The notes below the pieces were generated by a model. That model was given only the letters and a program-made list of their open reading frames with translations, was not told where the DNA came from and ran no database searches. This document shows positions 8,911 through 62,059 of a stretch of 64,000 nucleotides of DNA, one piece after another. The stretch lies in NCBI GenBank assembly GCA_001692895.1, contig KV748218.1:620001-684000 (forward strand), read 5' to 3'. The translations under genes and the position numbers were made by a program. How positions within the stretch are numbered: the first letter of the stretch is position 1; every line of letters begins with the position of its first letter. Source of the stretch: Cenococcum geophilum 1.58. Lineage: Eukaryota > Ascomycota > Dothideomycetes > Gloniales > Gloniaceae.

Positions 8911-9036
8911 GATATGAGATTCCAGAAGTGGGGGTGAAAAGGGAACATCTCAAGCCAAAGAAGTGACTCTATACAAGAATTCTACGTAGTTTTGGTTGCT
9001 ACGATAGGTCACTGTCAGTATTTGGCATTTATTATA
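8911..9036. other. Intergenic region between HET gene and MITE
   Basis: Normal composition; no feature seen beyond the 9-bp target duplication TTTATTATA at 9028-9036. Confidence 0.5.
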
Positions 9037-9788: not shown

Positions 9789-9925
9789 TTTATTATACCC
9801 TGTAATATCTAATACCACACCCCAAAAGAACGATCTACTCGTCTCTAATAATCTCTGGGACTTTGCTAACACCCCAGAGAAATCTGCGCTGTTCTATATC
9901 TGCCAGCTCAATGCAATACTACCAA

Positions 9926-12110: not shown

Positions 12111-12202
12111 GACGAGAAAATCACCAAGATATCAAATGTAAAAGTATAAGAAAGTCAATGCAGATTTTGTTAAAGAGAATCTTGAGTAGCAGCCTCGGAG
12201 GA

Positions 12203-12213
12203 TTTATATAAAA
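12203..12213 (-). promoter_or_regulatory. TATA-box-like element of the AAA gene
   Basis: TTTTATATAAAT on the minus strand, about 95 bp upstream of the ATG at 12110. This is the expected distance for a fungal core promoter; judged by sequence only. Confidence 0.4.
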
Positions 12214-34428: not shown

Positions 34429-34688
34429 TGTTGAACGGACGATCAGGAATAAGAACTCTGTTTATTAAAGAGGGCTCTAGAAGCTCTCTTATATACATCA
34501 GGTAGGTCCAAATATAATGACAACGACGTCGTCATGTAGTAGGTCATAGTTAAGAGAAATAGGTAATGAGACGTTTGATAAGACATATGAGCTTAAGATA
34601 CGAGACAACTGAGACATAGTTCGTATAGACGATCTAGGTCGTCAGATAGTATTACGATGGTAGTAAGGAACTTCGATTTAGGTTAACA
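34429..34688 (-). repeat. Left (3') LTR of the copia-like element
   Basis: On the minus strand starts TGTTAACCTAAATC and ends CCGTTCAACA. Less mutated than the right copy. Confidence 0.85.
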
Positions 34689-34699
34689 CACCCCCCTAG

Positions 34700-37600
34700 C
34701 TGCATAGAGCCTTCTAGGCTGCTGTAGAAATACTAAAAAGTTATAATAGCAATTTGGTGTTAAGTTAAAGGAAATTCTCTATATATTTACCTTACCTAAA
34801 TATTATTTAAATTAAATTAAATTAGATCCTTAATATTAATAAGGTTTAATTACTAAACAAACGTCTTATACTTTTAACGAGGCAGAGCCTTTATTATGCC
34901 GTCTATTGTTATATCCGTAGTAGGCACCTATTTAATATTAATACTTCCTTTATAAACTTCCTAGCGGAGCTAGTGGTTATAAATATTAACGTGTTAAAGC
35001 TTAGTATTAAGCTCCGCGTTACTTTTAGTTAGTAGTTAAATAGTTTATAGATTATTGTAATATATTATTTGCTTCTTATTAGGGTTAAATCCGATTTCTT
35101 TAAAGAATTACTGCTACTAAATTAACTTAGTAGCTGTATGTGATAGGGCTAGGAGCTCTACTTTTATGCTTAATTTTATTACTAACTTTTGCTTTATAGA
35201 TTGCTAGTTAATTAGTCCCCTAAATAAGGTAAATAGGTAGCCTTCTATACTCTTCCTACTTACTAGATTATTATTAAATAATACGTCGCTTGCCCTTACG
35301 AAGATCTGGTTCATTATATTCTCCTTTAAGTACTTAATTATAAGAGTCTTGGTTTAATTAAGGTAGGTAATTACCCTTATAGCAGCTGCGTTGTGAACTG
35401 GTAATAGATTTTATAAGAATTCTAATAGCTTACTTACTGTTTTTGCTATATCTAGATAAGTAATATTAGCTATATAGAGTATAGATCCGACTTTCCTCTA
35501 ATAGGCGTAGGTATCCTACTTAGAGGCTTACTCTAGATTAGGCTTAAGTTCCTTAATACCTATTAGTATATATATCTTGCGATAATCTTTAATTTTAAAG
35601 CTTATCGTAATTTTATTAATATAGGAATCCTAGCTAAGCCAGAGCTTCCTATTCTTTCTATTGCGGATAATTTAAAATTTTAAGAACTAGGTAAGGTTAC
35701 CTAGGTCCTTTATCTTATACTTTCTTATAAGGTTCTCCTTAAAGGTTTAGAGCTTAAGTAGGTCTTTTTTCCTAAATGCAGCTATAATATTATTAACGTA
35801 GAAGAAGACTATTAGCTAATCGTTGTGATATAGGCAAGGCTCCTCCGCCACTGGCTTTAAGCCTTCCTTTTTTAGCGTTATTGTTAAGTTACCGTGCTAT
35901 AGCAGAGGTGATCGTTATAATCCATAGAGCGCTCTTTAAAGTAGTAGGCATTTGCCCTTAATTAAAAATCTATTTAAATACTTAATGTAAACAACTTTGT
36001 TAATTAGGCTGTTTGCGAATACATTAATAGCGTTACCTTGCTAGCAGTCTAGGTTAAATATTACGACGATAGCTATTAAGGCTCTAAATAATCTTACTGC
36101 TAAAGTTATAGTATAGGTGTTCTTATAAACTAACTTTTGTAGATTACCTTATATATAAAGACGAGCTTTAAACCTTATTAGATATCCGTTAATATTAGTC
36201 TTATATATAAATACCCAGATAATAGGCACTGTTTTGGTATAAATTGTCTTATTAATGACTTAAAACGTTTCTTAATTTTAAAGGTCCGTATATTTCTTTT
36301 AGGTAATAGCTACAAACTCTTTCTTATATTAATGTCTTTAAAGCTCCTTCTAATTCCTAGGCGGCGGTAGGAGCTAATTACGGTATAGCTTTTTATAAAA
36401 TATAAGCCCTATATTAAAGGCTGATCTTTAAGCTGGAAGGCTCTAGTTGGTAATATTAGTAAGAAAGCCTATATAGATCTTTAATCGTCCTTTAAGTCTC
36501 TTTCCTTTAACTACGTTTTACTCTCCTATATCGCCATTAATCTTCTTCTTTCGCTTAGCTTTATTAGTCGGAACTAGGATATAGTACGGCTTCTTTACTA
36601 AGGTATTTAAGGATAGTGGTGGAGGCTCCGGTAAGTTAGGTTCTAGTATATTAGGTTTTAGTGTCTTATTTAGGATAAAAAGCCCTAGAGCTAAGTTATC
36701 TTTAGAGCTTAAATCTTATTACTTACTACTCTTAATATTAGGCTCTTCCTTATTTCCACTAGATTCCACCTATTATCTCCCTTTGGTATTAACTTAAATC
36801 TTATCTTAAGTCTTATCGCTTTTATTAGATAACGATTCCAATTTATCTTAGAAATCCTATATTTAATAGACATTAATAATTTCTAATATTTAGTTAGTTC
36901 TAACTTAGAGTATATTTACTAGATCTGGCTATAAGTTATTATAAAGTAACTACTTATTAAACTTTACGTCTCTAGTTCTTATAACCTTCTTTTAACTAGG
37001 AATATAGATTTAAAATATATTTGTTAAATTATATCCTACTAGATATCCTATATAGGCCCTTAGCGCGAGCTTATTTAGGCGTAGAATATTATATTTAAGA
37101 GGGTAGGCCCTATAGCCGTAGACTTATAGGTGGCCTATATTTAGTTTTAGTGGTAATATACCTATAGCTAACTAGATTCTTTTAAAAGGTATTTACTACC
37201 TAAGTCTTTTACTAGGCGTTTAATTAAGTAAATAGGCAGCTACTTTATAGACTTTAGGATATAGCTCCTCTAGTAAATAGGCCTTAATTCTTATATACCA
37301 AGCCTTCTATATAATTACCCCCCCAGATTATTCTACTGGACCGTTCTATAATTAAGTATTAGGTGCTAATCTTTTAAAACTAATTCCCTATTTAGCTGCC
37401 TATTTCTTAAATTCGCCTATAAGAGATATTTCTCTATTTATATGGATAATGGCTACCTTAAAGCCATATTATTATTTAATAATATTATAATATTTAATAA
37501 CAATTTGGGTAAGGGACGACTTCTTAGCCATCGTCTCTATCTTATTTATTCGCGTTGTGTTATTAAGGAAGTATACCGCGTACTTATCGCCATTAAATGC

Positions 37601-39500
37601 GACTATTCTAGGTATTAAATTAAGGTGGATTTTATAGAAAGGAACTAGCGACTAAGTTAATAGTTTTCTTGATATCACCTTATAAGCTTTGCTTACTCTA
37701 TATAATTTACATTCTACTATCGTTAGGCCTTTTATAATCGCGCCTATTACTAACTAAGGTAGTTATTTAATTGCGTTTTTTCCTGTATGGCCTAATCACT
37801 AGTGCTATATATAGCCTTCCGCCTGATTTAGTAGAGGCTTTAATAAATGCTTTACTGGCTTTAATTAAGTTATAAATAAAGCCTCTCGTAAGTCCTTTAG
37901 CTTATTATATTTAACCGTTTTCTAACTATAGTAGTAGCTATAGTGAAAGTACGTCTCGTTGTCACTAGAGAAAATAGTGTTCTCTTTATTATTCTAATAG
38001 ACTCCCTTATTATTAAGCTTTTAGAGGCATACTAGGTTAGTATAAAAGCTTAATATATAGGCTGCTCGTAAAAGCTGCATCTATGTTTTGCCTATTGGTT
38101 GGTTAATTATAACTATAGCTGTGCTATAGCCCACGATCTCTTCTGTATTTAATTCTACGTAGAGCCAATCTAACGTAGGCTTAATATCGCTGATGAATCT
38201 AGCTTAATCGTTGATGATATATATAGTGGTTCCTAAGTTAAGGATAAAGCTATCACGAAGCTTATAATTGGAGGTTATATTATAGGCTCCTACTTAATAA
38301 ATAGTAAAGGCTCCTCTACTAGGCTCTTAAGAGCTCTGCTTATTGCTATTCTTTAGCTTCTTATTAGCTTAATTGTCCTTTTTAATTTGCTTAATATAAG
38401 CCTTAATTTCGGGTATTGTATTAGTGATCTTCTTATCTACCTTTTTCTAAATTTTGTTATTTGGTTTAAACCATAATGGGCAAGGAATCAACTCTACGAT
38501 GTACTAGTATTTATTAAAGTAGTGATGTTTTCCGTATAGGTACTCTAGCGGCGGTTGCCTTTCCTTCTTCTACTTATCTGCTAACGATTAAGGTTTTAAT
38601 TTAGGCTTTAAATTCGGTAACTTATCTTTAAAGGTAACTCTAAATAATCCTTCCTGTGGGTTTTTGCCCTTCTAGGCGAGGTCTATATAATAGTAGTTTT
38701 GGTATATTTCGACTAGTTTAAAGAAGGTAGGAAGCATCTTTTTCTCCTACTTACGCTTATTAAGCTCGTTCTTCTAATATTCTAACTAGCTTAGTATAAT
38801 TAATTTAACTATATATGCAAAGTCTTTTACCAAATAATTACTATCTACCTTAGGTAGAGCTTACTCCTTATACTTAGTATACACCTTCTCCTACTTTTAT
38901 AACTAGACCTTAAAGTTCTAGTTCTAAGGCGCCTTCTTAAGCTTTATATATTGAGTAGCTATTTAAAGCTTTCGGGTATAGTTAGTTGGAGTAATTCTCT
39001 TCTTAAGAGATACTAAAACGTTATAGGTGGTGGTATATTTAAACGTATAAATAAGATAGGTACGTGAGATGGAGCTTAGAATATAGCTACGCAACGTATT
39101 AAGAGCTAATAGCTATTTTCTGTATAGCTTTATATTGTCCCTATAGTCGGCTTTAAGCGTACGGAGCTCCTCCTTCTCCTCCTTATCTAGGTCCGCGAGC
39201 TTCATCTTCCCCCGGCTATTGGTATCCTTAGGTAAGGCTTAAATAGGTTCTTTAAGCTATAGCAGATTAGTCTTAGGTATTAATAGGTTAACATACTTCT
39301 AGAGACGATTATTATTCGCTTTTAACTTAATAACCTTAATCTATTTATCCTAATTGTTTGGGCTTGTAAGGATAACGGATGATATAATAACGGAAGGGAT
39401 TTTTTGTTAAGAAGTTATTATAGGTGGTTATCTATAATTAAGATAATAATTAGAATTAATGGGAATAAAGGCTTTGGAATTAAAGATAATGCAGTAAACG
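34700..39500 (-). pseudogene. gag-pol of the copia-like element
   Basis: The RT catalytic block on the minus strand at about 35845-35780 reads EPCLYHND*LIVFFYVNNII, matching the copia YVDDI motif with Asp-to-Asn RIP changes. The integrase C-terminal catalytic region at about 37470-37310 gives AIIHINREISLIGEF and LAPNT, then NGPVE and SGGVI, corresponding to the QNGxxER-SGG motif. RNase H should lie left of RT, and gag right of 38500; both are too degraded for me to delimit. Confidence 0.82.
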
Positions 39501-39515
39501 GCCTAGGCTTATAAC
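39501..39515 (-). promoter_or_regulatory. Primer binding site resembling half-tRNA-iMet type
   Basis: The minus strand directly after the 5' LTR reads GTTATAAGCCTAGG. Drosophila copia uses a similar site (GGTTATGGGCCCAG) complementary to the anticodon-stem part of initiator tRNA. The differences are G-to-A or C-to-T changes. Confidence 0.5.
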
Positions 39516-39751
39516 TGTTAAATGGACGATTAGGAATAAGAACTCTGTTTATTAAAGAGGGCTTTAAAAGCTCTCTTATATATATTAGGTAGGTCTAAAT
39601 ACAATAATAACGACGTCGTTATATAGTAGGTCATAGTTAAGAGAAACAGGTAATGAGACATTTAATAAGATATACGAGCTTAAGATATAAAACAACTGAG
39701 ATATAGTTTATATAGACGATCTAGGTCGTTAGATAGTATTACGATAGTAGT
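39516..39751 (-). repeat. Right (5') LTR of the copia-like element, truncated
   Basis: Matches the left LTR up to GTAGT at 39747-39751. The next bases (TATAGACC) have no counterpart. Confidence 0.85.
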
Positions 39752-39805
39752 TATAGACCAAAACTCCCCTTGGCAGAATCCGACTCGGTTAGTTAGCATC
39801 GCCGC

Positions 39806-40220: not shown

Positions 40221-40328
40221 CCTACTACTTTGTAGCTCGCCCGTCCGTTCCTATAAGCTTATCTCTATATTCCTCTTCCCTTCCTTCTTTATATTAGCTT
40301 CTGCTTACCTTATCTATTTCTTTATAAA

Positions 40329-43300
40329 ATGCTAAAAAAGAAGGACCCTTATAAGTTCCTTGCCGTAGCAAAGGTAAAGGGCTCTAACTAAAGTAGGGAG
40401 GGTATAAACGGCACTAAAGTTCAAAAGCGTCTTAAGCTAAAGATAGAGAAAGCTTATTTTAGAAAGGTAGAGCTATGGTACTAGTAAGTTATAATTAGCG
40501 TACCGTGGCGGTTGGATTCCATCCCGCTCTAACCCTTTACTAAATAGATTTACTAAAGAATATTCTAGTTCTTCTCTATATAACCTAGCATCCTTAAAAG
40601 ATTTCGTTAAAAATATAGTATATAGTATTAATGGCGTTAAGGATAATCTAACGGCAGCCTTAAATACCATTAGCCAGTACTAGAAAGATTTTATAGCTAG
40701 CTAGCGTTATATTAATACCGTAATACCTATAAATATAACCCTCTCTATTATAAATATATATTCTGTTTATATTTCCTTATTTTCTCCTTATTAGAGTTCT
40801 AATTTTATTTAGTTTATTAAAGGCCCGCTAGCTAATAAACTAAAAATGCCTAGGAAAAAAAGGCTAAGAAGGTTTACGACTAAGAACCACTTTATTTATT
40901 TAGGAAGGCAGCTATAAATAGTAGATTGGGTTGCGTATAAATGACTAGCAATAAGAGTAAATAATTAGGCGGACCTTATGGCCATTATTTATTCTTCCGC
41001 GCGAGTTGGCGAGTATATTAAGTCTAGCTGTTAAGCGGGTTCCGGCTGGGGTTTGTACTATAAGGTAAGGAAACCCCCCCCTCCTCCCTAATATATATAC
41101 ATATATAGCGTAGTAGGTAAATAAATTAACTTAGTTATAATATAGGATATAACTTTCGCAGTATTTCGCAATAAGTACGGAAATATAGAGTTTGCTATTT
41201 AAATTGTTTAAGATGCTAAAAACATAACCACAATACCAGATAAGAGGTGAGCGCTAGGTTACTTAGCCTATTAAGTTAAGCAGTAGTTTTAATTCTTATA
41301 TTAGTAGGCCAAAACACTCTCTATATAAGGGCATAGTAGAAATGCCTCTTATTTGCAGCTCTATACTCCTAATACTAGCTATACTTATTATAATAAAGGC
41401 GTTTAGAGATTATAATACTATTAAAGAGCTCCTTAATATAGTACCACCGGAGGGGGAGATGCTTTATTTATAATAGAAAGAAAGTGTGCTTAATATACCT
41501 TTCTTTAAGAGTATGTCCGTAAGATAGAAAATTAAAAAGGTGAACGCATTTAGCTTCCGCCTTAGAGCGCTAGGCATCCGTATAGAATACCCTTAACCGT
41601 CTATAATTTACGACTTTAGGGCGGAGGGCTTATACTAAATTGGTATGTATATAGTCGTTCCTTCTATCTTTAGGCTACTTACTAATTAATTTCTAGCAAA
41701 GATAAGCTGTATTTAGCCGCTTAAAGAATAAAGTATACTAGGTAGAGAGATTTAAATACGTTTAATAATTACTATATACCTAATAATAGTGGCACAGATG
41801 GCTAAGCGAGCTATTTCGGCACTAAGCTACGCAGTATTATTAATAACCTCTTCCGCGGTTTATCTCTCCCTTATAACCTAGAACTATAGTAATCTCTCCT
41901 AGCAGAGAAGTAGTATAAATTTAAGAATAGCTCAAAATATATTAATATAGAGGAGGAGATTGCTGCTTTAAAAGGGAAGAAGGATATAAACTCTATAACC
42001 CGTTAAAAGGAGCTTTATATATAAAAACGTAAGCTAACTACTAAAGAACTCTATAAGTAGTAAAAGGTACAGCTGTATAGACCGGATATTAATAATAAGG
42101 ATAATACCTTACTATACTATTACCAGACTATATTCAACCAAACCCGATTTTTTATACCTAAATGAGACCGCCTTACATCTATCCTTTTTAAGGTCGCTAC
42201 CTTGCGGAGCCCTATAGGTCTTAGCGCTCTCTATAATATAGTTACGCTATATTAAAAGAATACTGAAGTAGAGTTTTAACTGGGCTTAAAGCTAAAGAAG
42301 TGCTATTACTCTAACTTAGTAGGCTAGCGGAAGATAGCTTAATCTTTGCTTAGCAATATAAAGACGAAGACTACTTATAATTAGAGGCATATATATAACT
42401 GCTATAAGAAGAGTTATAATGGCTTTTTTAAGCTATACTTCTAATGTAACTAGTAGATTTTCGGAGAGGTATAATAGAGCGACCACTACTAAGCGTATCT
42501 AGACGACTGTAAAACACTTTCTATTTAATATAACCCTCTTATATACAATAGGGTGCTCGCCACTACTGGCTACTATCCCTTCTACCTTAGTAGTACTGCG
42601 CCAGCTATAGTATGGATATATTAATTCCTAAAACGGGCTATATAGAAAGAGCATATCTATAGGTATATAGAAACCCTAAATAAGAGTAAACTGCTAAATT
42701 GCCCTTACCTAGGTTTATAATGCAGGGCGATATTTAATTTAGTTAAGAAGCTAAAATTCCATCTTTAGGATATTTATTACCTCGACTTTATTAAGGAACT
42801 AAAATTACTAAAAAGATTAAAAGAAGACTATGAGGTAGAAATGCAGCCGGCTAAAGTTAAGAAGCAGAGGTCCGGCTATAAAAAGGAATTAAGTATAGGT
42901 AATAAAGCTCTAGCTAAAGTAGAATACGGTTTTATTAATAAGATAATAGAAAGTATTAGCTAATACCTATTTAACAAATCTATAACACCCTTAAGCTGTT
43001 TAATATTAGATTTTAGCAGTTATATAAGTAGTGGCTAGACTAAGAACGGAAGCTTTCCTAGTACTAATACCCCGCCGCCATCTATATGTAGTGGGATACT
43101 TAAGATAATTAACCCTAGACTTTTCCCTTAAGTGGCTACCCGGAGTAGCATAATGTCTAAGTATAATATAATTAATATAGTAAACCTTATAAACCCTAAT
43201 AAAGATAGAACGCTTACTTTAAATCAAAAAGATTCTAATACAACTTTAACTTTGCGTATGTATTAATAACTAACGGCTAAGATTATCGCGTCTAACTAGG

Positions 43301-43906
43301 GTATAGATTGTCTTATATACGTAAGAGATATAGAGGACTATTTGACTATTAAAGCCTTATTTTACGGTGTGAAACTAGAGGACTTAACTAATGCTACTCT
43401 AAGCTCAGGATATATGGAGATTAGGAAGCAGGAGTATAGTGCTCTAAACGCTTTAGTCGTTCTTAATAGTACTAATCTACTTAGCCCTAGGTATATTAAT
43501 TCTAGTATAACCCCTTATAATGTGTATTTAGGACACACCTCTACTTCCAATCTACGGATTAATAGCCTATTATTACCAGCTAAATACACTAAGGGTAATA
43601 TCGGAGAATTAACCTCTATATAAGCTATTTGAGATATTAGCCTACTTGCCCCTATAGACGTGGAGGATAACTAGTTTACTATTAAATGGCTAGTTAAAAA
43701 GCGCGTTTGCTAAGTTAGTAAATGTAGGAAAGTCTAGTATCTAGTTAAGTAGAAAGAGTATACTGATAGCGAAAATACTTAGGAAGATAAGATAGATATA
43801 TATAATAATCTAATTAAGGCCTTTAAAGCCTGGAAGCGCCTTAGTGTCTTAAAATAACCGTAGCTAAAGTCTAAGAGATTATTATCTAATTACTACTCTT
43901 ACTCCC
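40329..43906 (+). pseudogene. DUF3435 tyrosine recombinase with C2H2-like region and C-terminal chromodomain, RIP-inactivated
   Basis: Starts near an ATG at 40329. Recognisable DUF3435 blocks: SSARVGEYIKSS at about 40995 (first catalytic Arg), FRNKYGNIEFAI at about 41165, FFKSMSVR and NAFSFRLRALGIRI at 41500-41585, IYDFRAEGLY at about 41600 (HxxR with CAC changed to TAC), DKLYLAA, and TFNNYYIPNNSGTDG at about 41760 (nucleophilic Tyr). FRGLSLPYNLEL and a basic helical region follow, then a C2H2-like segment at 42000-42800 with several Cys/His codons lost. At 43684-43850, in the same frame as the preceding 43342-43623 stretch, lies WLVKKRV...KCRKV, YLVK, EYTDSENT and IKAFKAW, a chromodomain. 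An intron of about 59 bp (41643-41701) and another after YYK (about 41060) fit the frame changes. DUF3435 proteins mobilise Starship and related elements. Confidence 0.85.
43684..43850 (+). pseudogene. Chromodomain-coding part of the DUF3435 gene
   Basis: Spacing of W-L-V-K, R-K-V-(stop)-Y-L-V-K-(stop)-K-x-Y and S-E-N-T-(stop)-E matches the chromodomain consensus, with stops at the conserved Trp positions (TGG to TAG). It is in frame with the stretch ending at 43620 through four codon-sized interruptions only. A separate gene starting here is unlikely because there is no Met or promoter between them. Confidence 0.8.
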
Positions 43907-44499
43907 TGCTAGGTTTAAGGTCGAGCCTATAACTCCATAATTAGACGGACACATTAGGCACTATTTTCTATTATAATTTTTTTCCCTTTTCCTTTAACTT
44001 TTAACTTTATTAAGGATACTTTAAAAATGCCTTTAATAGTTATAGTTATAGTTTACTAATAGAGATTTACGCCCCTAACTATATCCCCACTATATAGACC
44101 AGAGTTCTTAAATTCTAAGTAATAAGAATTAATATAGTAGCATAGACCTACGCTAATTTTGGTATAGGGTTAATCCGTGACTTTTAGACGCCTGAAGAAC
44201 CCTATTATTTAATAGTTAAGGGCCCTCTAGCTCCAAAAGCGCTATAGGTATTAAATAATGTATATAGAGCAGTTTATTAATAAAATAGGTTAATTGATTA
44301 ATAATCTTAATTAAGTCCTGTCTTAAAGCTTAATTAACCTTAACCCTTAGGGCTTTAAACTATAAAGAGATTTTATAATATATATACCCCGTATATATAA
44401 CTTATATACGTCCTACGCCACCAAGAATATAGATTATCTAACAGCAGGAGACTGCTTTAGACTTTTGCTTCTAACTTTTACAACCGTTAACGCTAGAAA

Positions 44500-45050
44500 C
44501 TCTTTAGTATACTAGTATGGATTTTATAAAATAAAGCCCTTTATCTTGTCCTTAAGGACACCCTTTTCTTTTAGTAAGGCTTGGAGTCTATAACACTCTT
44601 CTAATTTATAGTGCAGAGCTGTTTCTACAGATTTAAAGTATTATTTTTACCTCTTATAATAGCGCGCTAATTGCTCTTTATGCTTTATTAAAGACTTCTA
44701 TAGGCAGAGTTACCTTTAAGTTATAGAAATTGTATAATAGAATATCTAAGGTTTACCTCTCTCGTGCTTTTTTTTTTACCGTTTCTTGGTGTTTTTGGCA
44801 TACTGATATTAAATACCTATAGAGACTAAAAGCAGACGGCTTAGTATAAATAGTATTATTAGAGAAGGTAGGAATAACAGAAATATAGGGGAGTAAAGAT
44901 ATAAATGGCCTAAGAGGGCGGACGGGATATTTTAAATATAAAGCTTTAATGCGGTAATATAGCGTTAACACTAACACCACAAGTGGAATAATCTCCAATG
45001 CTTATATTAGTAAGTAATATAATAATATAAGCAAATTCCTAATATACAGC
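44500..45050 (-). pseudogene. Unrecognised frame with a coiled-coil-like segment
   Basis: A minus-strand frame with an open part at 44998-44753 (81 codons) continues to about 44500 through RIP stops. The N-terminal part is hydrophobic (IIPLVVLVLTLYY); the later part is rich in Lys, Glu, Gln and Leu with heptad-like spacing (KEQLARYYKR, ALHYKLEECYRLQALL). No family recognised. It is convergent with the DUF3435 gene. Confidence 0.4.
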
Positions 45051-45189
45051 CATAGACCACTATATTTAAAGCGCTAGCCTTTCTATATTTCTTATCCTAG
45101 TTCTACTTTGTATATCTATAGTAAGGACAGTAGTATTATATCTTAAGTAAAAGGCTAATAAGGTTCTCTTAGTTCTAGCTAGAGAGATA

Positions 45190-46830
45190 GGAGTTATAGG
45201 AGATTTACTTTACCCTTTATTACTTTAATGTAAACGAAGCTTAACAGCCGGTCTTAAAGAGGTTAGTAAGCCTTAAAAGAAGATAGAAGTTTCTAAAGAT
45301 ACTATTACTGAGCCTATTACTATCGCGGATACCCTTATTATTGCAGAAGCTATTATAAAAGACGCCTCTGACGCCGCCATAAAAGTCAGCAATAAAGTCG
45401 TAGAAACCTTCCCAAAATCCATTATAGAGTCCGCCTAGGATGCCGCTATGAATACCCTAAATACCATTTTAGATATAAATACCGTTACAGGCTTTGTAGA
45501 TACCTAAGTAGCCGTAAAGGACACTATAGATAGCACTGTAGATACTATAGGCATTACTATAGAGGTAGATACCGGATTAACAGATGATAAATTTAAACGC
45601 CAATTTAAATGCGATTTTAAAGCCATAATAGTAGGGATAAAAAGCTATAGAATTAATAAGAATAAGAATATTAAGGATGTTAATATAGAATTAGGAGTAA
45701 AGTAGGTAAATAGATCCTAGAGAATAAGGCGTAGATAGTCTACTTTGGTTCTTAGTAAATACTTAAATAGGGGATGGATAATAGAAATAGAGAAGATGTC
45801 TATATATTATTTAAAAATCTCAAAATATAAATAAAAGAAAAGATAGCTAAAGGATAATTAGTAAAATGGTATAAACTACTTAGATACTAGACTCCCTAGG
45901 GGTATAAGAGGCTTTTATAGTCGCTTATAACGGGTAAATAGGATTTTATCTTTAACCGTCTCTCCTAAATAAAACATTAGATTTGCCGTCTTTAGTTATA
46001 TTAATATCCTATGAGATATAATTTATAATTCTTACGCTGTTTAATAAAACTATTATAACTGCCGCTATAATATACTCTCCCTAGCCTATATTAGCGGATA
46101 TCTTTAGAGGCTATATAATTTACTTACTAAAAGGAAATAATCTGTCTAACGTAAGATAAGAAGGATTATACTTGCCACAGCTAGAAGAATATATAGTATT
46201 CTAGTAAGTAAGGTTATACGTAATAACCTCCAATTCCATACTTATTGTTATGTGCGCGCTTACTATATTTTAAAGACTAAAGTTATAGTAAATAGGATAT
46301 ACACTAAAAAACTTTCTACTGCTACTAAGACACTTACTGGCAGCTAGCGCGATATAAAGAATAATAGCCTAATTCCTAGGACTTAGAGTAAAAAAGCGAG
46401 ACCTATAGCGGTATAGGGAGCCTAGCGATAACCCTCCTTTATAAACTTATTAGTAAAGCCCTATAGAGTTTAAACCTAGCTTTAATTAGTAGGTTCCTTT
46501 AGTATGGCGGCCTTATATACCTTAGCATTTAATACAACTAATAATAAATATCTTAGTAGCACGGTTATTAGTTAGGGTAGACCCTAAGCTAAATAAATAA
46601 TCCGGAGCTTCTTAAGTCTAATTAGGGCTGTAATCACAAGTCTAGGGATAAGGAAAGGAAAGGGTATATTAAAGGCAAGATACCACTAAAGGCGTTATTG
46701 CTTATAATACTATAGAACAAAAGTATGGAAAGGGATAAGATAATAAATAACCCCTATATAAATATACGCAACGGGGGTAGGTAGAGAAGCGTGCATTATA
46801 GTAAAGGAAAGAAGGCAACTAAATTTTTAG
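45190..46830 (+). pseudogene. Unrecognised RIP-degraded frame
   Basis: A plus-strand frame is readable from about 45240 (an Asp/Thr/Ile-rich stretch, SKDTITEPITIADT) to about 46830 with mostly Gln/Trp-type stops. No domain recognised. Confidence 0.3.
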
Positions 46831-47440
46831 CCTAGCTAACTCGCAGGCCTTATAACAGCCTAGAATTTTATATTTAAAAGCACCATTTCGTATTAAAACC
46901 TTAGCTTCTCTTTTTAAGTAGGCGGCATCCCACCTAATAACCCTAACTATGCTAGCTGCGTCGCTTGCGCGTCGCTTATTAATATTTGGGATATAAGACA
47001 CTAATATTATATTATTAAAAGTAATAACGGATATAAGGTTATCGGAGGCGCGGGGGTTACTCTATTATGGCGTTCTTAGTAAAGTACTAGCTTTCTATAC
47101 TAAGCGACTAATAAAACCTAGATTTTAAAAATCCGGGATTTATTAGCTCCTCTTTCTTTAACTACTACTTAACTAATGCTAATGAGGCAGTAGTACAGCT
47201 AGATAGTAATATTTACTCTTAATACTGTTATTACCTTATACTATCTATAAATTGACTTTAAACCGCACTCTGCAATTATTAAAGTTATAGCTACTCCGTT
47301 TATAGTACCGTCTTTTCCAAACTAGATATTTTACTCTTTTTACTATAAATATTAGCTTTATTATTAGCGGATAGATAAGGCAAAGGCAATACAGTAGGTT
47401 AAAAAAGCCGTATATAACTATATCCTTAAATAGTTGCATT
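46819..47440 (-). other. Short minus-strand frames, unassigned
   Basis: Open stretches at 47001-46819 (60 codons) and 47439-47245 (64 codons). The first is basic and Ala-rich, the second hydrophobic. Neither shows a motif; they may be pieces of one decayed gene or chance. Confidence 0.2.
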
Positions 47441-48239
47441 ATAATTAAAACTTCTTGTAGTAATGCTAGTAGGACTCCTAAAAAGTACAGAATAATAATT
47501 AACTGCTAAAACTTAAGAAACTAGTTGCATACTTACAGATCCTCTATCCTTATTAGAGTTAAATATCTCCTACCCTAAAGTAACTTAGTTATAACTTAGA
47601 GAGCTTACCTAATTAGCAGATTAACCGGAATCTATTGATAACCTTTAAAAAAAACGCCTTGGGAACGGTTTATAGCGAAGCTCTCCCTAAGATTAATACT
47701 ATCTAGGCACTAATACGCCACGGACTTTAGATAGAGGGTAATAATTTAATATCACAGATGGCTCCTAATTAGATATTAACGTAGTAAATCCTTATAAACT
47801 CCTAAGAGCTTCTAAGCACCTAGAAGAGCCTATTACTTATACTAACCTTAGCACTAAATCTAATACCTATATTGACGCGCCGGGACGTGAAAAAGAGCTT
47901 TTAGACCGCTCCTTAAAATAGAAAAAGGATACCGACTCGCCTAATAATAAAGGGGAGCTTTTTGGAAACCTCTTAAAACGGATAAAGGGGTTAAACGAGC
48001 CGGTTTTTGTAATAAAATAGGACTAGTATATATACAATCTAAGAGTTAAACGTAGGTTAACGTAGAAAGAAACTTTAACAAAATTTAGCGGAAGATTTAA
48101 GAAACTTTTAATTCCAGTACTTTAGATGCGACTAATAAGATCGCGTAGTACTATTTCTCTTGTAAATAATGCGGTAACAGTTTGCGATAAGAGTAGCGTT
48201 AATGTTAAGAAATTAATCCTGGTAGTAGTTTAGAAGATC

Positions 48240-49530
48240 CGCAGCGGATTAAAGGAGAAAGTTAATAGCGTTAGTTAAGTAACCTTTTAGAATTGGCTAT
48301 AGAGGGAAGTTATAGGGGTTAAATATAAGGGCTTACTTAAGGCTTACGCTAAATCCTTAAATAAGGACTAGAAAGCCTTAAATAGGTATTATAAAGAGAG
48401 GATATAGTACGTTAAATTTATTAAAAATTGTTTCTACCTTATACGAAAGTTTAACGGAGGGAAGGTTAGTACTTAATATATTAATGCGCCTCCAGGTCTA
48501 CTACTAACTTTTTTGCTAAACTAGAAACCTAGTTATAACGAGCGCCGTTAAGGATATAAAATAGCTAAGATGGTTAATTAGGTAGTTAATAAACTGGCTA
48601 TAAAATAGGAACGGAAAGCCCTGCTTATCTATATAGCTCTTATAAGTTAGACTATATATAGGTTACCTTATAATGTAATCGCTAATATAGTAATAGGAAA
48701 GCAATACGCCCTTACTAATATAGTAGAGTTAAGATAAGAGATACGCATTTAAATAGCATAGAGAGTAGTAGAGGCGCTAGAATAAGATAAAATTCCTACT
48801 TTAACCTACGCGCTATTTAATCCTACCTATAGGATAAGCTATAACTAGTATAGGGAGTAAGTCTACGCACTTTAAAGTTTATGGTATTTTAAGACTAAGA
48901 TTAGCTGTAGATACTTTAATATTTATAGGGCTTTTAGACTTACTAACTTTATAACCTATAAACTTCTACCTAGAGATCTACTAGAACCTCGTATTTATAA
49001 AATTAATAAAGATAATATAGCTAGCTCCCCTTCGCCTAAGGTTTTATCTATAGCCTAAGAAATCTATATTAATAATAACAGCGCTCTAAGTAATTAACCG
49101 CATAATATTCTAGGTAAGTTAAATTAGAGAGATAAATTTCCATAGAGTTTTAATAATCTATTTAGGATCTCCACTAGGAGGCGCTTCTCCGTATATAACT
49201 GCTTCCTATATAAAGAAGACACTTAATAACGTCAGAGGACGAGATTTTATAATATAGTAAGGATCAGACTTAGGGATAGAGGACGGCTACTAGCGTATAC
49301 CTTCCCTAATAAATATATACTTAATTAAAAATTATACTAGGACACTTTCTATAAGTTTAGATTGGGACTATATATTAGATAAAGATATCTAAATTCTCTT
49401 AAATATAATGCTAAATAAGTTAGTCTTAAAATAGGATGAGGAAGTAGAACTAAGCAACCAGTAGCTCTTAAATGGGCTTTTAAATAGGCCCTTAAACGGG
49501 CTCTTAATAACTAATAACTCTTTTATAATG
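48240..49530 (+). pseudogene. Long unrecognised frame with RIP stops only
   Basis: A single plus-strand frame can be followed for over 400 codons. Nearly all stops are TAG/TAA at positions where Gln or Trp would fit. The protein was basic and helical, with many Arg, Lys, Tyr and Ile (for example KEKVNSV and KAYAKSLNKD near the start, LPRDLLEPRIY near 48960). I do not recognise the family. Possible cargo gene of the element to its left. Confidence 0.45.
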
Positions 49531-52500
49531 CCTAACACGTCCTTAAACTTATAATATTATCCCACCACCTATTATAGGGATAAATTTCCTTGCCGCACTA
49601 GACTATATACTAATGTTATAAATATCCCTCCTCTATCAGGAGGGTAAAGGTATATTAAGTTGCCTCGCCATACTATTATGTCGCCCATATTTAGTCTTAC
49701 TAAAGCTTTTTTCTAAGAGGATGCCGCTAAAGGTAACTGGTTATAAGATCCTTTAACAAAGATATACCAGCCGTTTTTGGGTTTAAGTTTGGTTAGGGCT
49801 ATAGTAACATATACTACTTCCTTCTCTCTACTATAACCTTTAGTAGTTAGGGCTGATTTGTGAAAAACTCCGTTATAAAAGGATTGAAACTAAGGAATAG
49901 GTTTACGTATAAGGAACTTAGCAAAAAAGGGTTTACTACTTCTCTTCTACTATATATTAGTAAACGTTAAGTAAATAATACGCCTAACTTACTTTAATAA
50001 ACTTATCCCGTATGTCGTAACAGACCGGGGGTACCTTATACTCTATATACTTATCCATTTCTCTCTTAACTTTTATATCCTTTATCGCTAATAGCGCTTA
50101 TTAAATAAGGGATAGAGAAATCGCTCCCTAGATAACTGCATAGCCTACGCTATTTACTATTATTAATTAAATGCTTCTATAATGGGTGGTTAAGTATAGA
50201 TATAAGGGAGCCTATAGGGCTATTACACGCTAGCGCGTAATACTTAGCATAAAAATTGTCGGCTTATATAGGACGTAAAACTTCTACCTTCTATAAAAAT
50301 GCTATACCGCATTTATTTATATCTTCTACCGCTATTAGTGCCTATATATTTCTTCTATTTAGGTTAGGCAGCAAACTCTCCGCTAAGTATAGTAAAAATC
50401 ACCAGTGCTATATTTAGACTGGCCTACATTAGCTTTAAGTATAAATTTACAACCTAAAATATTAACAATTCCTATATTTACCCCCTTATTTTAAAAACCA
50501 ACCTAAAGAGTTTATATGCATTCTAAGAAATATATAAGTTATTATTTCTTAGCATAATGGCATTTTTCTATAGTTCCGCAAAATATACGATTATACTTAA
50601 GTTTACTATAAATATACTCATCTTTAATATATAGTAAAAGCCTAGTATATAAAATATTAGGAGATGTAAAAGAGGTGCCCTATAAATATAGTTACAATAT
50701 AAAATTAGAATTATTTTCTATATAGCTAGATATATCTAACGCGCTATATAGAGAATATCGCCTTAACAAAAACTATGGTTTGTTTTCGCTACTTACTTAG
50801 AAGTTATTACTAAACTAATACTGGTTTAGAAACTTAGGCGATTATAAAGATATATTTACAAGCTTAAAGAATACAGGAGGCAGGGCAGGAACCTGGGGGC
50901 TAAGTAAATAAAAAGAAACAGAGCCAGCTTTTATACGCGTCCTCAGCACCAGCAGCTGCCTTATGTCTGCGCAAAGGCAAATACTAAAAGGGCTTACCGG
51001 TTTTCTTAGCCTAGATTACTTATAGGAAGCTACTAAATATGAATATTAACTACGTTTTATATACAGCGGTCTTTATCTAAAACTTACTAGCTAAGGCAAA
51101 CTTTATAAAGCCTCCATCTTTATTAAATGCCGCACTAAATATGTTTAGTACCTTATAGGATATAATTATAGAATAAGGCTCTATAGGAAGCTAAATATAT
51201 AAGACCCTGGAGTTGGAAGTAAATATATAGCCGAATGTGTAGGACCGACTACCTTAATATAAGGTAAATAAAGCTAAATATTTTTAAGCCTTAGCTAATT
51301 ATTTATTTAATCTAGTTCCAATTTAAAAGATAATTAAACTTATAAATACATTTAACCTTAGTGCTTACGGCTTTATATATCTTAAGCGCACCTACTATTT
51401 TATAGGCTGTGGCTGTGCGGATTAGGACATCTAGAAGGAAACAAATGGCTACAGTGGATAATGCATGGGTAATAATGTTATATAGACCAGAGGAGCACTA
51501 GATTGGGTAAGAAGTTATTATAAATATACCTACCCTACTCTAGAGTTGTAAGACCTCCTTAAACACACCTATAGCTTTAACTATCGCACGCATGACATAA
51601 TCTACTATATCGCCCCTAATTCGAGTTCTTATTACCACTTACCTAGCTTTACTTAACTCTTATAAATTGGATACTAATTGCGCGGATATAGAGTTAATCC
51701 ATATATTCTTAAAGTAAACGCTTAGTTTTATTAACACCGCGGTAAATATAAAGCCTATATAGTATTTAATTACAAAAGTAGTAAAACATATTTAGATTAT
51801 CTTTAACTATAGACTTCCTAAGAATAATTATAAACCTCCTGTAGCCGCGTTTTGGGTATTAAATAGATCTACCTTTTTAACTGCTAGATTTTACCATCTA
51901 AGATTAAAGAAAGAGGTAAATAATACGGTGGATATATCGCGGGGTTATAGCGTGAGATTTCCCACTTAAACAGACCTTTAGAAGAATTAAGATACTTAAG
52001 AAAATATAAAGCAATAAATTTTGTCTTTAAACTCTCTATATAAGTCTATCTACAGCCCTATAAATTGCGTATTAAGCGCTAAGAAGGGGACTATTAATAG
52101 TATCCTCTTTTATTATTTTAAGTATAATATTAGGAATATTATACGTTAATGTCATTGCCTATAAGGGAGACGGCAGGCTTACTGCAATATAGTGTATAAA
52201 TATAACTAAAGCAGAAGAAAAAGCAGACACTATAACTATATAGGTGCTACCTATTAATATAATGGCCTAGTGAACCTAGTTTCGTTTTATCTTTTAGCGT
52301 ATAAAGGTAGTATTGCTAATTATTATATGCACTAATACCTACTATACGTGGAATCTAAACCTATAATGTTGGCCGCGACCGCTGCTTATTGCTGGCTTAG
52401 TATGGGCTATAGGGCAAGGTAGTTATAGAAGCTAGGTAACTATATGAGCTAGGTAACTAGTAGGTCTCTCCCTTTATTAATTTACGGAATGTTAACTAAT

Positions 52501-52790
52501 TTTAAGGGAAATTTCTATCCTCTATTAATTAATAAGCCGGCGTGGCGGAGTTATAAGCGATATATAATACCTCGGATTAACTAACTAATAATATATTTAT
52601 TGGAAGCCAGAACTATATTAGAACTATTAAATATTAATATCTAAAATTACACCCGCGTTAAGGAAGAGAACCATTATATAACTACTAGAAGGTAGGAAAT
52701 ATTCGCATAAAAGAGTCTATGCCGTATCTTAGCTGGGACCTTTTATCTCCTTATTAAACTCCTTAATAAATTCCAGAACTACTTTAAGAT
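49531..52790. other. RIP-degraded DNA, nothing recognised
   Basis: TA-rich with stops in all frames. A small stretch at about 50875-50990 keeps more CA/TG. No LTR pair, transposase motif or long frame identified. Confidence 0.4.
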
Positions 52791-52799
52791 AAAAATAGG

Positions 52800-54700
52800 A
52801 CACTAGAACTCTATCCTTAATCGCTAAAGCAATAGCTATTTTAATAGCATTTTTAATCTATAATAAATAAGCAATTAGCACAACAGTTCTCTATTAGGAG
52901 GTTAAGGTGGTATACCTATTAACTATTAAGCTCCTTTTCTACTAATCTCTTTAACTCGTTAGGACTATATCTAGCTTCTCCTTTAGTTATAACTGCCTTT
53001 TTTAGGAAACTTTCCTAAAGTTCCGTCCGCGTCTTAGTTATTAAAGTATTATATAATATAGTAATATGGATTCTGCTTTATATTATGTTATTAAATTCAT
53101 TTATATAATTAGTAGTAAGGAATATAATTTCTTTATAGTATTTAAGCATACGTAAGAAAATTGTAATAAGGCTGTTACTTATATAATCCAGTAATCGTTT
53201 CCGTATAAATATGTCGGCTTTATTTAAGAGAAGTATAGCTTCCTAGTAGGCAGCCAGCTAGAAAATGCAAGAAAGCTTATCTTTAACATCCTTTGGGTTA
53301 GTGCCTAGTTCCCCACTAGATAACTAAAAGAGTTAGGTAATAGTAATAATATAAATAAGCGGGAGCGTACCGTATATAGTGGTTTTTAAAGCGTTTCTAA
53401 AAGTCCTTTGGCGGTTAAAGTCTTACTAACACTAGCAGGGCCACTAATTTATATATTAGGTTTCTCAAAAAATAAAGGAATAAGGAGAATATTATACTAT
53501 AGCAGCATTATTAGACCTTATCCCTTGCCTACTATAAAATCATTAAACTAAGTATAAGTCGCGCTTATTAAGTAAGAAGCTATAAGAGCCTTTATAAGCT
53601 TCTTTTATTTCTCTAGAATTATAAGGTGTTTAAAAGATTAAGGGTCCTAGTAAATGTCGCTAATATTATTAATAGCAAACTCCACTGTAGGGCATTAAAT
53701 CAGCTTTACGCTCTTCCCTAATCTATAAATCTAGGAGATATAAGACTTATACTAGCATTTTTTACCTAAACTAAACCCCTATACGGTTGGGCTGTATATA
53801 AAAAAGTGTTCGTTTAGTAAACCCTTTATGCTATTACTTTTAACTTTATTAAGTTTCTTCTCTAGAGGATTGTTAAATTGTATCCAAATACCACTTAAAA
53901 ATTGGCGCCTTTGTAGCTCATTAATACTGGGTTTACTATAGTTTAAATTATACTCCTAGAATAGTGCCGTATTAATTATAATACGGCTATTAATAAACAC
54001 CTTAACGAGATGTCCATTGTCTATATAAAACGCATTACCCCTATATTGCTGATAATACTTCCCTTTTAAGAAAGTAAACTTCTAACCGCGCTTAGTAAGT
54101 TTACGCTTCTCGTTTTCTACGTTAGGGTAGTATTTAAAAGGAAAGTATTTAAGGCTATATATTGGCTTCGACCCCTAGAACTTCTAAATAGGAACTACTA
54201 TTACAGCTTCACTAAATTCTTTACTATTGTTATCTATATACCAGCCTTTAATGCGAAAGAACTCTTCCCCTTTATAACTAGTTCTCTCCTCGCTAAAATT
54301 AAATTTAATACATCTAGGCTTCCTAGTACTAAGGCATTTCCTATATATAAGATCATTTAGCTTAAAGAGAGCCTAGAGTATATTATATATAATTTCTCCG
54401 CTACATTTTAATAAGTTAAAGCGTTGTTTTATAGAGGCGTATATAGTTTTAATATAGGTTACTAATAAATTAAAATATTAAAGGGCTAAAGGATTATAAA
54501 GGGTTTTATTTATTAGAGCGTTACTAAAAGCATCTAATATAGGGATAAAGTAGTATAATAGGTTCTGCTCTACCTAGTTAAACTATTAGTTAATCTAAGG
54601 TATTAAAAGCCCTACTTATAGAGGTTGGCATACTATAGGCTTATCTTCTTTAAGGGAAGTTCCCTTTACGTATTAAAGGACGGACCTAAGTATATCCCGC
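52800..54700 (-). pseudogene. DUF7025/AAA ATPase pseudogene, relative of the gene at 9926-12110
   Basis: Minus-strand order matches the intact gene. GEIIYNILWALFK-like residues lie at about 54405, FFRIKGWYID at about 54230, YPNVENEKRKL and KFTFLKGKYYQQYRGNAFY at about 54120-54040, and NPLEK at about 53860. The AAA core follows: Walker A as GPASVSKT at about 53445 (GPPGVGKT with Gly-to-Ser changes), LSSGELGTNPKDV at about 53320, AILLLNKADIF (Walker B, Asp to Asn), FLTTNY at about 53125, then RIHITI-like. Stops stand at Trp/Gln sites. The presence of a related intact copy 42 kb away in the same window is notable. Confidence 0.88.
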
Positions 54701-55606
54701 AGGCCTTTAGAATTAATATCAATATAATATATTGCCTTGCCAATCTTCTTACCTAGTGTTTTACTATTAGCAACGGAAACCCAGTAGCTACCTTATACTT
54801 ACCTCCCTGCCTATAAATAACGAATATATACTCATTAAATTCATCTACCTCTAAAGTTAGCGCTAATTTAACTTTTATATATTTAAAGGTTATAGGATCC
54901 CAGCTGTGTATAGTTGCTTAGCTAGGCTATACTTATAGTTTATTAGGGATATATATTTTATTAACCGTCCTATAACCTAATATCAAAGCTTAGGCTCCTA
55001 GTTAGGAATCTATAGGTTAGATTTAAGAAGATAGCGGTAAATTTAAGCTACTTAAGGGTGTGACCGTAGAGCTTAAACGCGCTACCTCTAATACTTCTAG
55101 CATTTTTGCTTAGTAGATAGCGTAGTAATAATCTAAAGTGCGAAATTAGGGTAGAGTTTTTAAGAGAAGCTCAACAGGGTTACTTCTTAAAAAGCTCCCT
55201 ACTTTATACTATTAATAGATATAAGCTATAGCGGTGTCGCAAATGTTTACAGCACTACTCTTTTAGCTACGCTATCTCTTATCTATATTAGAGGATGCTA
55301 GATAGTATATGTTAATATAAATCCGACATAGAGTAGAGCTCAATTAAGCGAACCTATAGAGTTTATTCTTGTCAGAGCCGCGGAGACTTATAGCTTGTAT
55401 TAGGGATTATAGTCCTAACTACTAGTCCTAGCTGCTAGCTAGCTAATACGTTAGAGCAAAGGTAAACGTAGTAAATTAAAGAGAAGAGAGATGTGGTTGC
55501 AGGATAAGCAGCTATACTATCCTAAGCAAGCTAGAATTGTCGTGTAGCTAGGTCTAAGCTCGACTAGGATTTGTCCTAACCCCGCCTATAAAACCTATAT
55601 ATAGTA

Positions 55607-55770
55607 GTCCCATTCCCATTTCCTACTTCCTACTTCTCACTTCCTATTTCCCATTTCCTATTTCCCACTTCCTACTTCTTACTTCTTACTTCCCACTTCT
55701 TACTTCCCATTTCCTATTTCCCATTTCCTATTTCCCATTTCCTATTTCCCATTTCCCATTCTTATTCCCA
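55607..55770 (+). repeat. Pyrimidine tandem repeat TTTCCCAYTTCCTA
   Basis: About 165 bp made of CCCAYTTCCTATTT-type units, pure pyrimidine apart from A. It ends about 40 bp before the ATG at 55813 and could be a promoter-region CT tract that expanded. Confidence 0.85.
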
Positions 55771-55812
55771 ACTTAGTCTACTATTCCTATACCGTCTACC
55801 TTTATATGCGCT

Positions 55813-57290
55813 ATGTCTTAACAAGCCAAAATAGCTAAAATAGCCACTTTATCAAACCATTGGCTTATTGGGAAACTTAAGGCAGTAAGAGCGATATTTG
55901 AAAATAATACCTATAAACCACTCCTACCATATAAATCCCTAAAGAAGTATTATAATTTACTATTTGAGAAAAAGGCAATCTTAGAGGGGTAAACGAAGTT
56001 AAAGTGTAGTAGAAGGTAATAAGTGCGCAATATTTTTATAGAAGTCTTTAGATCGATTAGCTCTAAAGTATTCGTATTATATATCTTAGCAGCACCTATT
56101 ACTAAGCTTAGTGAAATAAAACTTAAGGATATCTTGGTAGATATTTAAACATAGTAAAACACTGCTAAATACCTATAAGAACTAACGGTGGCTGCTAAGC
56201 AATTCTATATAGATAATTTAATTAGCGCTTTAATTCTACCGTCCCGTAAGCGTTCGCTCTTATAGGTAACTATTACCACTAGTAAAAAAGCCTTATTAGT
56301 CCTAAATAAACTTATTACTAATTCCTAATAGAGCAAGACCGATTTTAAAGCACACCCGCCCGTTTAACAGAGAGTCACTTATTAGGGTTTAATCTACGGC
56401 CTTATGACACGGATTTGGACCTAGGACGTACTCTACCTATACGGACTTTGCGGACAATATATACCCCGGTTATAAATAAGATACTTAGTATACAAGATTC
56501 TAAAGTCCTATTACTACTTACTTATTCGCTATAAAGTATGGCCCGCTATAAGAAGGTAATATCTTACCGGGCATACAGAATACACAAGGTCTGTATAGCC
56601 CGCCCTAGAGAATCCAATAAAACCTAATATTTATTAGAAATAGATGCCTTATTTACCCCCCTTTTCGGGCGCCTAGCTTACTAGCCTAAAAAATCCTTTC
56701 TAAACTTTAACTTTATAGATCTCCTTAGCTTTTTCTAATGATACTAAGCTAAACGTCCGAAATTACAAATAGTGTGCCTATAGGAAGGGGAACCGTCTAT
56801 TAATATTAATTTGGATTCGTCCCCTAAATAGAGTATAATAATTAAGTTCTCTTATAGTTTAAGTATAGTATTTATTTATTATATTATAAGCGGCGACGAA
56901 AGTACCGCACTAAAGGACTTCTAAAGAATATACAATCCTAACTACTCTTTATAACAATGATAACAACTCCACTATAACTCGGACCTATAATAATATTTAG
57001 CACTTCCTTTAGTATACTAAGGCCAGTTACCCTAATAGCCCCACTAGCGCTAGTCTTTTAGACAAGGATTATAGGAATTAAGGGATCTACGGTTTAAAAG
57101 TCTATTCTAATCGTCTCTATAGCGTCTAGAATTATATCCTAACCGGTCTATATAGCTTTAATTTAATTTACTTTAAGCATTTAAGCAGGTATACCAATTT
57201 TCGGGCCTCCTCCTTAAGCAATTAGTCGCTATATACGATGTCATTAACCAGCGTTATCTAACTCTCCCTAGCTATACCCATAGGGGTTAT
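55813..57290 (+). pseudogene. Unrecognised long gene with RIP stops only
   Basis: From ATG 55813 one frame reads on for about 340 codons to 56840, and less clearly to about 57290. Stops are at Gln/Trp-type positions (for example TAA in the third codon). Readable parts: NHWLIGKLKAVRAIFE, KPLLPYKSLKKYYNLLFEKK, VFRSISSKVFVLYILAAP, LPSRKRSLL, LMTRIWTQDVLYLYGLCGQY. It looks like a real, formerly functional protein of a multicopy gene family. I do not recognise it. The upstream pyrimidine repeat supports the start. Confidence 0.5.
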
Positions 57291-57539
57291 ATACGACTAA
57301 GAGTGTGGCAGAAAATGCGTTTAGAGGGTGGCGCTCTAACGTACTAATATAGTCTAGGGATAAATTATAGTCTCTATTAATAGTATTACATACAGAAGGC
57401 GATGGCGAAGGGCCGTTAAGTATAGGGTTAGTAGTATCCTACTATTAGTTATTAAGGCTATAGTTATATAATCCGGTTAAGGGTTAGGAGGACTTAGTAC
57501 TTTAGAAGTACTTCCCATAGAATTAGTAAGGATTTGGGT

Positions 57540-57989
57540 TGCTTATATATAAGTCGCCCTAAAAGTTATAAGTTTTTTAGCAAGATAAGATGGTAGATAG
57601 AAGAGGGACTATATACGCAAAAGCCTAAAAAGCCAAAAGATTAAACTGGACGGGCGTTTTATACTATATAGTAAACCATAAAGCGCGTGCGGTATCTAGA
57701 AGGGTGTATAAGTAGAAGCACGCAGTATAAATAGGCGAAAGTGGGCTTTATTTAAAGTGATGCCAGCTATAAACGTTAATGCCCGACCTTAGATAACGGT
57801 CGCCTCTTTACTTCTAGTAGGGCGGATATTACGTATAGAGGGGTTAATACGGCTCTTATAACCTTAGCTTTTTAGCCTTATATCCATCTCAGCCTATATA
57901 GCTTGCAGTTAGGTAATATAAGTGGCTTTTTATTCACCGGCCTAAAAAATAGCTTCCTACTTAGCCCTATTAACTCTTCCCGCGGACAT
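57540..57989 (-). pseudogene. Unrecognised minus-strand gene fragment
   Basis: ATG at 57989 with a good A-rich context, then MSAGRVNRAK, Q/A/E-rich helical residues (AIFQAGEQK, TQLQAIQAEMDI) and SINPSIRNIRP-like residues; the frame is readable for about 150 codons with RIP stops. Convergent with the gene before it. Family unknown. Confidence 0.35.
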
Positions 57990-59280: not shown

Positions 59281-59283
59281 ACT

Positions 59284-60345: not shown

Positions 60346-60699
60346 GCCTCGTACCTATTCCTTCTAGGATTTTAGTTTTCTAGATAAGGCTGGTAATAAG
60401 CCTAATAATAATGCACTCCCGGGGGAAGCGACTAAGGAAGTCCCTAATAAAACCGTCTCTTAGGTTATCCCAAGAAAATAAGCGCAGGCAGCTATTAAGT
60501 ACCTTTCCCCACAACAATCCTCCGAATCTGTTATTATAGGTAAACTAGGTATCGCGGATAAAGTAAGTCTCTTATAGTAGCTTTCTATAACCTTTTAAAT
60601 TAAGGATAGCGGTTGCTAGAGCTAGGCTAAATGCTAATTATTATAAGGCACTAGCAGTAAATAAAGCTATACTACTACCTCTACTGCCTACCTAGTCCC

Positions 60700-61990: not shown

Positions 61991-62059
61991 GGCGGTAATA
62001 GTAGTGCTATTCTTTTCTGCTTAAAGTTCTATTTCTAGCTTAAGCTCTATTTATGGCGC

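Follow-up and report, generated by a model that had tools for sequence, protein, structure and literature searches.

We have identified a predicted DUF3435 tyrosine recombinase (YR) gene that has been broken by repeat-induced point mutation (RIP) and that ends in a chromodomain. It lies in a 64,000-nucleotide stretch of the Cenococcum geophilum genome (the window; contig C43:620001-684000 of a genome of 177,193,698 bases). Recombinase and chromodomain belong to a single protein, and intact proteins of the same domain order occur in five genera. We lean, if only slightly, towards the view that this is the decayed captain-like recombinase of a giant Starship-like element, whose chromodomain would tether it to silent chromatin. 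Cenococcum geophilum is an ectomycorrhizal fungus. Below, C-numbers are contigs of its genome, L-numbers are extracted genomic loci, and P-numbers are homologous proteins from a sample of 67. The gene and its parts, in window positions, are as follows.

40329 to 43857, forward strand: DUF3435 tyrosine recombinase gene, RIP-broken, with a C-terminal chromodomain and with introns in its 5' half; placed by tblastn with six intact homologues, homologue searches and Pfam
40993 to 41016, forward strand: block of the first catalytic Arg, SSARVGEY, read in the 40330 frame; all 55 homologues that span the column have this Arg
41603 to 41629, forward strand: HxxR block, IIYDFRAEG, in the frame of 40331, its His codon now Tyr (HDFR in relatives); His in 54 and Arg in 54 of the 57 covering homologues
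41764 to 41802, forward strand: nucleophile Tyr block, NNYYIPNNSGTDG, likewise read in the 40330 frame; the Tyr is present in all 62 homologues that span the column
42380 to 42777, forward strand: zinc-finger-like C-terminal part of the recombinase, limits approximate, from alignment to relatives; a weak zf-C2H2_jaz match lies below cut-off in P0003 and P0004
42985 to 43671, forward strand: linker in the same frame, recognized by stop depletion and by the scarcity of indels in a diverged subfamily
43672 to 43833, forward strand: chromodomain, recognized by a profile of seven intact fusions, by Pfam and by a query with the Candelina domain

The six intact DUF3435 proteins align by tblastn over 40263-43092, with the order and frames of an intron-bearing gene, and 58 of the 67 homologues match DUF3435 (PF11917) at E 0.01. 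The window piece itself scores 16.3 bits (E 0.0048), under the curated cut-off of 25.8 bits. The R-H-R-Y tetrad is retained by intact family members. The Arg, HxxR and Tyr blocks named in the original prediction, including the His to Tyr change, were all located, and since the HxxR His now reads Tyr the window copy is taken to be dead. Dinucleotide frequencies in the gene stretch carry the RIP signature (observed/expected CA 0.32, TG 0.41, TA 1.55, against 1.06, 1.02 and 0.79 in the comparison stretch 7001-13000). The recombinase sequence had no match among solved structures (a single row at E 0.4). The structure prediction for P0034 is of low quality (mean pLDDT 56), and its matches to Cre are taken as support only. 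In a quick family tree, built without bootstraps, the rows nearest the window gene are P0042, P0016 and P0048 of Glonium stellatum. Published accounts describe this species as close to C. geophilum, and the C. geophilum genome as 75% transposable elements.

With an X placed at every stop, the window frame matches the chromodomain family (PF00385) with 19 bits (E 0.0013), under the curated cut-off of 25.1 bits; such sub-cut-off Pfam matches in the window are, taken alone, suggestive only. A profile built from only the seven intact DUF3435-chromodomain proteins matches 43672-43833 with E 1.3e-9, the runner-up in the six-frame window having E 1.6, and it detects no second chromodomain of YR type below E 1 in the six frames. 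These seven proteins match PF00385 at E 0.01, always at the C-terminal end, and bear out the proposed combination of a DUF3435 recombinase with a C-terminal chromodomain. They come from Fusarium oxysporum (P0024), F. coicis (P0026), F. nematophilum (P0046), Monosporascus (P0035), Candelina (P0034), Cudoniella (P0065) and Periconia (P0027). Six of them pass the curated PF00385 cut-off, the exception being Periconia with 21.9 bits; in P0035 and P0046 it is the DUF3435 match that falls just under its own cut-off. A second chromodomain-like repeat is present in P0024, P0026, P0035 and P0046. Many other relatives do end before the position corresponding to 43620, but these seven do not. Against the fusion, close relatives with a long tail, P0004 for example, lack the chromodomain. 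The homologue searches ranked only the nearly 8000 candidates with most words in common, so that seven fusions among 67 homologues is a sample. The first search from the window returned six DUF3435 proteins (E 2.7e-82 to 3e-40), none with a chromodomain, and the fusions surfaced in an alignment-based homologue search. When only the X-masked tail and chromodomain served as a protein query, no match came up at E 10 among 3298 candidates, the query being too decayed to be informative. The source names of P0024, P0027 and P0065 contain 'Chromo domain-', and P0026 is labelled 'carbonic anhydrase 2' in its source record, an evident misnomer.

When the Candelina domain is aligned to the window, the stops of the window stand opposite Q, R, Q, W and W, which fits the earlier suggestion of RIP stops at conserved Trp codons. 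The aromatic cage, whose positions we take to correspond to those of HP1, is present as F/Y, W, Y in all seven intact proteins and reads F, TAG, Y in the window copy. The closest solved chromodomains are those of HP1, CBX1 and MPP8, with Swi6 lower in the list; all four read histone H3 methylated at lysine 9 (H3K9me).

That the chromodomain is part of the recombinase protein is also indicated by the DNA that joins them. The frame from recombinase to chromodomain holds 12 stops in 284 codons against a Markov expectation of 30.0 +/- 5.1, and only 3 of 5000 simulations were as low; equally low counts occur in 48 of 1488 other stretches where the window is RIP-hit, and some of these may once have been coding. 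In a diverged subfamily (~80% alike) the linker has a single indel over 1427 aligned bases, whereas the 3' noncoding stretch has 17 over 875; the recombinase part of the same comparison has 17 over 6387. Linker transversions by codon position number 31, 13 and 42 (p 0.0006), avoiding position 2. Two results tell against reading much into this pattern: transversions are also uneven in the 3' noncoding stretch (8, 22, 23; p 0.019), and in the recombinase part they are not clearly uneven (38, 52, 60; p 0.08). The scarcity of indels is for these reasons the better sign of coding. A linker stretch, TPPxxxCSxxLxxIxPRL, is recognizable by eye in both the window and P0034. The chromodomain thus lies, as originally proposed, in frame with the recombinase (the frame of 40330), although the gene as a whole is interrupted by introns and is not one continuous frame. 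It closes at the first in-frame stop 3' of the chromodomain (43855-43857), short of the proposed end at 43906.

The same arrangement recurs elsewhere in the genome, which contains at least 165 DUF3435 matches (from scoring 100 of 346 candidates, with each exon match counted separately). Tail and chromodomain are present in ten full-length copies including the window, plus two split copies, 86-91% alike. The distance from gene start to tail end is 3578 bp in the window and 3576-3585 bp in six other copies. The PF00385 cut-off is passed in 10 of the 11 other copies holding the chromodomain part, with a best score of 44.9 bits. Querying the genome with the Candelina chromodomain gave 18 matches, of which the top 13 comprise a standalone gene on C86 and the 12 element copies, the window copy among them at E 4.8e-11; the next match has E 3e-4, and most other chromodomains of the genome are not among the 18. 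This ranking argues that the domain was inherited with the recombinase and not acquired by the window copy from a neighbour. Five recombinase copies differ nearly only by transitions (non-transitions 0-0.27%), which implies that the copies were near-identical at the time of RIP.

The C86 gene is a standalone, stop-free chromodomain frame of 224 aa in GC-normal DNA (L064, C86:388300-392799, match at 3474-3689), and no DUF3435 match was found in the surrounding 4.5 kb. Being close in sequence to the recombinase's domain, it is possibly its donor or its remnant.

The surroundings of the gene show where the element begins, what it landed in and what it may carry.

39747 to 39760, forward strand: element 5' end, GTAGTTATAGACC..., inside a retrotransposon 3' long terminal repeat (LTR); defined by the shared start of homology in nine copies, element-free LTRs being continuous across the point
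34429 to 39751, forward strand: target LTR retrotransposon, with its 5' LTR at 34429-34683 (255 bp) and its 3' LTR at 39516-39751, cut by the element after 236 bp
44166 to 64000, forward strand: repeated downstream DNA (cargo), running past the window end; matched in order by C18 and C39 at 44.4-49.0, 50.0-57.0 and 59.5-64.5 kb

The recombinase gene starts 582 bp inside the element 5' end (~39747) and reads inward. The two LTRs of the target retrotransposon are identical at 210 of 236 bases, and this retrotransposon occurs at 40 or more genome places, the window among them (from scoring 40 of 649 candidates). From 34 listed gene-start matches ten were taken as loci, nine with an anchor and one without; in each of the nine copies whose 5' end can be read, the element begins GTAGTTAYAGACY. 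Four of the nine (window, C39, C36 and C18) sit at the same LTR nucleotide, cut after TATTACGATR and before GTAGT, where the element-free LTRs L047 and L048 read on as GTAGTAAGGAACTTCGATTYAGGT. The flanks of the other five differ, and in all nine a C stands five bases before GTAGT. The sequence further upstream is unrelated between the window, C39 and C18, which points to independent insertions at a single nucleotide. These differing upstream sequences make a segmental duplication behind the shared LTR position less likely, although a common flank might still be masked by nested inserts; over its last 900 bp the window LTR element resembles uninterrupted ones no less closely than those in C39 and C18. 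Judged from these junctions, insertion is DNA-sequence-specific, with a GTAGT core.

The mechanism that we propose has the YR cut and join at the GTAGT core, in a cut-and-paste manner, while the chromodomain would recognize methylation on histone H3, most probably H3K9me, and so hold the recombinase in silenced chromatin full of repeats. Target sites would be plentiful there and insertion would do little harm; RIP would then inactivate the copies. Steering of insertion through histone marks is plausible given that the cage is kept in seven of seven intact proteins, that the nearest solved structures are HP1-type, and that the 5' flanks are RIP-like in nine of nine copies (TA/AT 1.45-2.0 versus 0.83 in window genes, the comparison being with window genes only). 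Two considerations weigh against a simple form of steering. Insertion already has a DNA-sequence core, a single nucleotide of the LTR accounting for four of the nine copies; and the chromodomain is absent from most relatives.

These same points speak for a somewhat less probable alternative, in which the fusion is real and the chromodomain takes no part in site choice. It would instead retain or regulate the recombinase at silenced copies of the element itself, or act as a protein-protein module. The element copies are themselves RIP-hit repeats. Of the 67 homologues 46 reach the C-terminal block, 19 of these have at least 250 residues behind it, and the chromodomain is present in five of the 19 and absent from 14; the other 21 homologues fall short of the block in the alignment, yet two of them, P0046 and P0065, have a chromodomain. 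The aromatic cage in all seven intact proteins favours histone binding, but it does not separate targeting from tethering.

The tail behind the recombinase varies by lineage: it holds a single chromodomain, a pair of chromodomain-like repeats (in Fusarium and Monosporascus), or an RTC4-like domain (PF14474) at the extreme end in Exophiala xenobiotica and Rhinocladiella similis (P0029 1104-1192, E 6.6e-24; P0030 1073-1167, E 1.3e-23), whose near relative P0028 has neither domain. On the quick tree the chromodomain must have been gained or lost six times or more, without the tree telling which. A VVDLT motif that recurs in the tails of P0006, P0007, P0033 and P0034 resembles a SUMO-interaction motif. 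It is quite possible, if not quite probable, that the fusions represent a chromatin-reading YR branch with two-tier targeting, in which the chromodomain would find H3K9-methylated repeats and the YR a short LTR core, the tail being an exchangeable slot.

Our preferred reading further places the recombinase as captain-like within a giant, Starship-like element, of which the left junction is seen and the right end was not found. The window, C39 and C18 share the stretch behind 44165, estimated at 32-39 kb and compared piecewise up to C43:684.5 kb; sampled pieces are collinear in the three copies, with minimum spans of 47.0 kb (window), 45.6 kb (C18) and 52.7 kb (C39). Diverged relatives, whose recombinases are ~77-82% alike, carry parts of this cargo at 87-92% (C45, C55, C19), as if cargo had moved between recombinase lineages. 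The six RIP-hit frames of 43.9-53.9 kb gave no Pfam match to the Starship accessory families DUF3723, FRE, PLP and NLR.

The element may instead be a smaller, Crypton-like YR transposon that carries passengers by accident, in which case the DNA behind 44165 would be another element inserted before amplification; this we consider rather unlikely. It would suit the finding that 9 of the 12 copies with a readable right junction lack the stretch starting at 44166 and pass directly into another body, which was followed in C2, C61, C36, C28 and C11 and recurs at C43:698719-706709. It would also suit the lack of any recognized Pfam domain at 43.9-53.9 kb on both strands. Nor was a right end found, either by looking for the LTR remainder in the window and the fetched loci and following the shared body, or among the first 100 of 234 matches listed in a genome pattern search. 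On the other side, the stretch-free copies still share ~9-10 kb more behind the gene, order is conserved over 46-53 kb in three copies, and diverged recombinases carry parts of the same cargo. An apparent shared right end of C2 and C36 at L049:3261 was dropped, C36 resuming after an insert. This C36 copy is interrupted by ~12 kb (L050 from 3322; C36:774421-786339), the start of which is GC-rich and not RIP-like.

Elsewhere in the window, a HET domain (PF06985, E 5.9e-18) lies at 6975-7457, within an island of normal GC content (7-13 kb) that is not part of the RIP-hit repeats. Two chromoviruses had been proposed for the window as a convergent parallel to the recombinase; no retroelement Pfam domains were found in the scanned stretches, with 28-40 and 54-64 kb outside the scan and 13-28 kb scanned in one frame.

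Two further explanations deny that the chromodomain belongs to the recombinase. It is improbable that it is a separate gene just downstream, comparable to the last gene of the Starship Sanctuary: a separate far-end chromodomain gene has been published for Sanctuary and Frontier, the linker contains an in-frame ATG, and C86 holds a standalone gene of the same subtype, but recombinase and chromodomain share a frame depleted of stops, the linker has a single indel against 17 downstream, it shares its conserved stretch with P0034, and intact single proteins from five genera have the same domain order. A chromovirus integrase fragment inserted by chance behind this copy is highly improbable, for although the genome is rich in chromodomains (at least 150 matches, from scoring the best 150 of 740 candidates), the domain recurs at this position in no fewer than 11 other copies, and the copies are nearer to the YR-linked chromodomain of the lichen Candelina than any other genome locus found except C86.

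Among known systems, the window element most resembles those of Starship captains: a DUF3435 YR with an R-H-R-Y tetrad, encoded at the 5' end and reading inward, large variable cargo and a sequence-specific core. It differs in the C-terminal chromodomain of its recombinase, and in that the right end and direct repeats are not seen here. Starships are given as 15 to about 700 kb long (PMC12134995). The Sanctuary and Frontier Starships also combine a DUF3435 captain and a chromodomain in one element; their chromodomain is a separate gene at the end opposite the captain, unlike that of the window, which is part of the recombinase, and heterochromatin targeting is proposed for Sanctuary as speculation (PMC12506042, PMC11857905). 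Crypton-type YR transposons and DIRS-1 likewise have a tyrosine recombinase, with no chromodomain mentioned in the text searched on Cryptons (PMC3212892) or DIRS-1 (PMC5006619); in the latter source a chromodomain is placed on the chromovirus Skipper. No published description of a chromodomain on a DUF3435 recombinase was found among the titles and passages available, and as far as our searches reach the architecture is present in databases and undiscussed in the literature.

If our reading is correct, the recombinase itself may help a giant element to choose its genomic landing place, and relatives with and without the chromodomain permit comparison inside one protein family. The closest functional likeness is to the integrases of chromoviruses (Ty3/gypsy), which are also DNA-joining enzymes of mobile elements that end in a chromodomain. 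Those belong to retroelements, whereas the window enzyme is a predicted tyrosine recombinase with a chromodomain nearest to other YR-linked ones. To our knowledge this would be the first tyrosine recombinase with a histone reader built in, in parallel to the chromovirus integrases.
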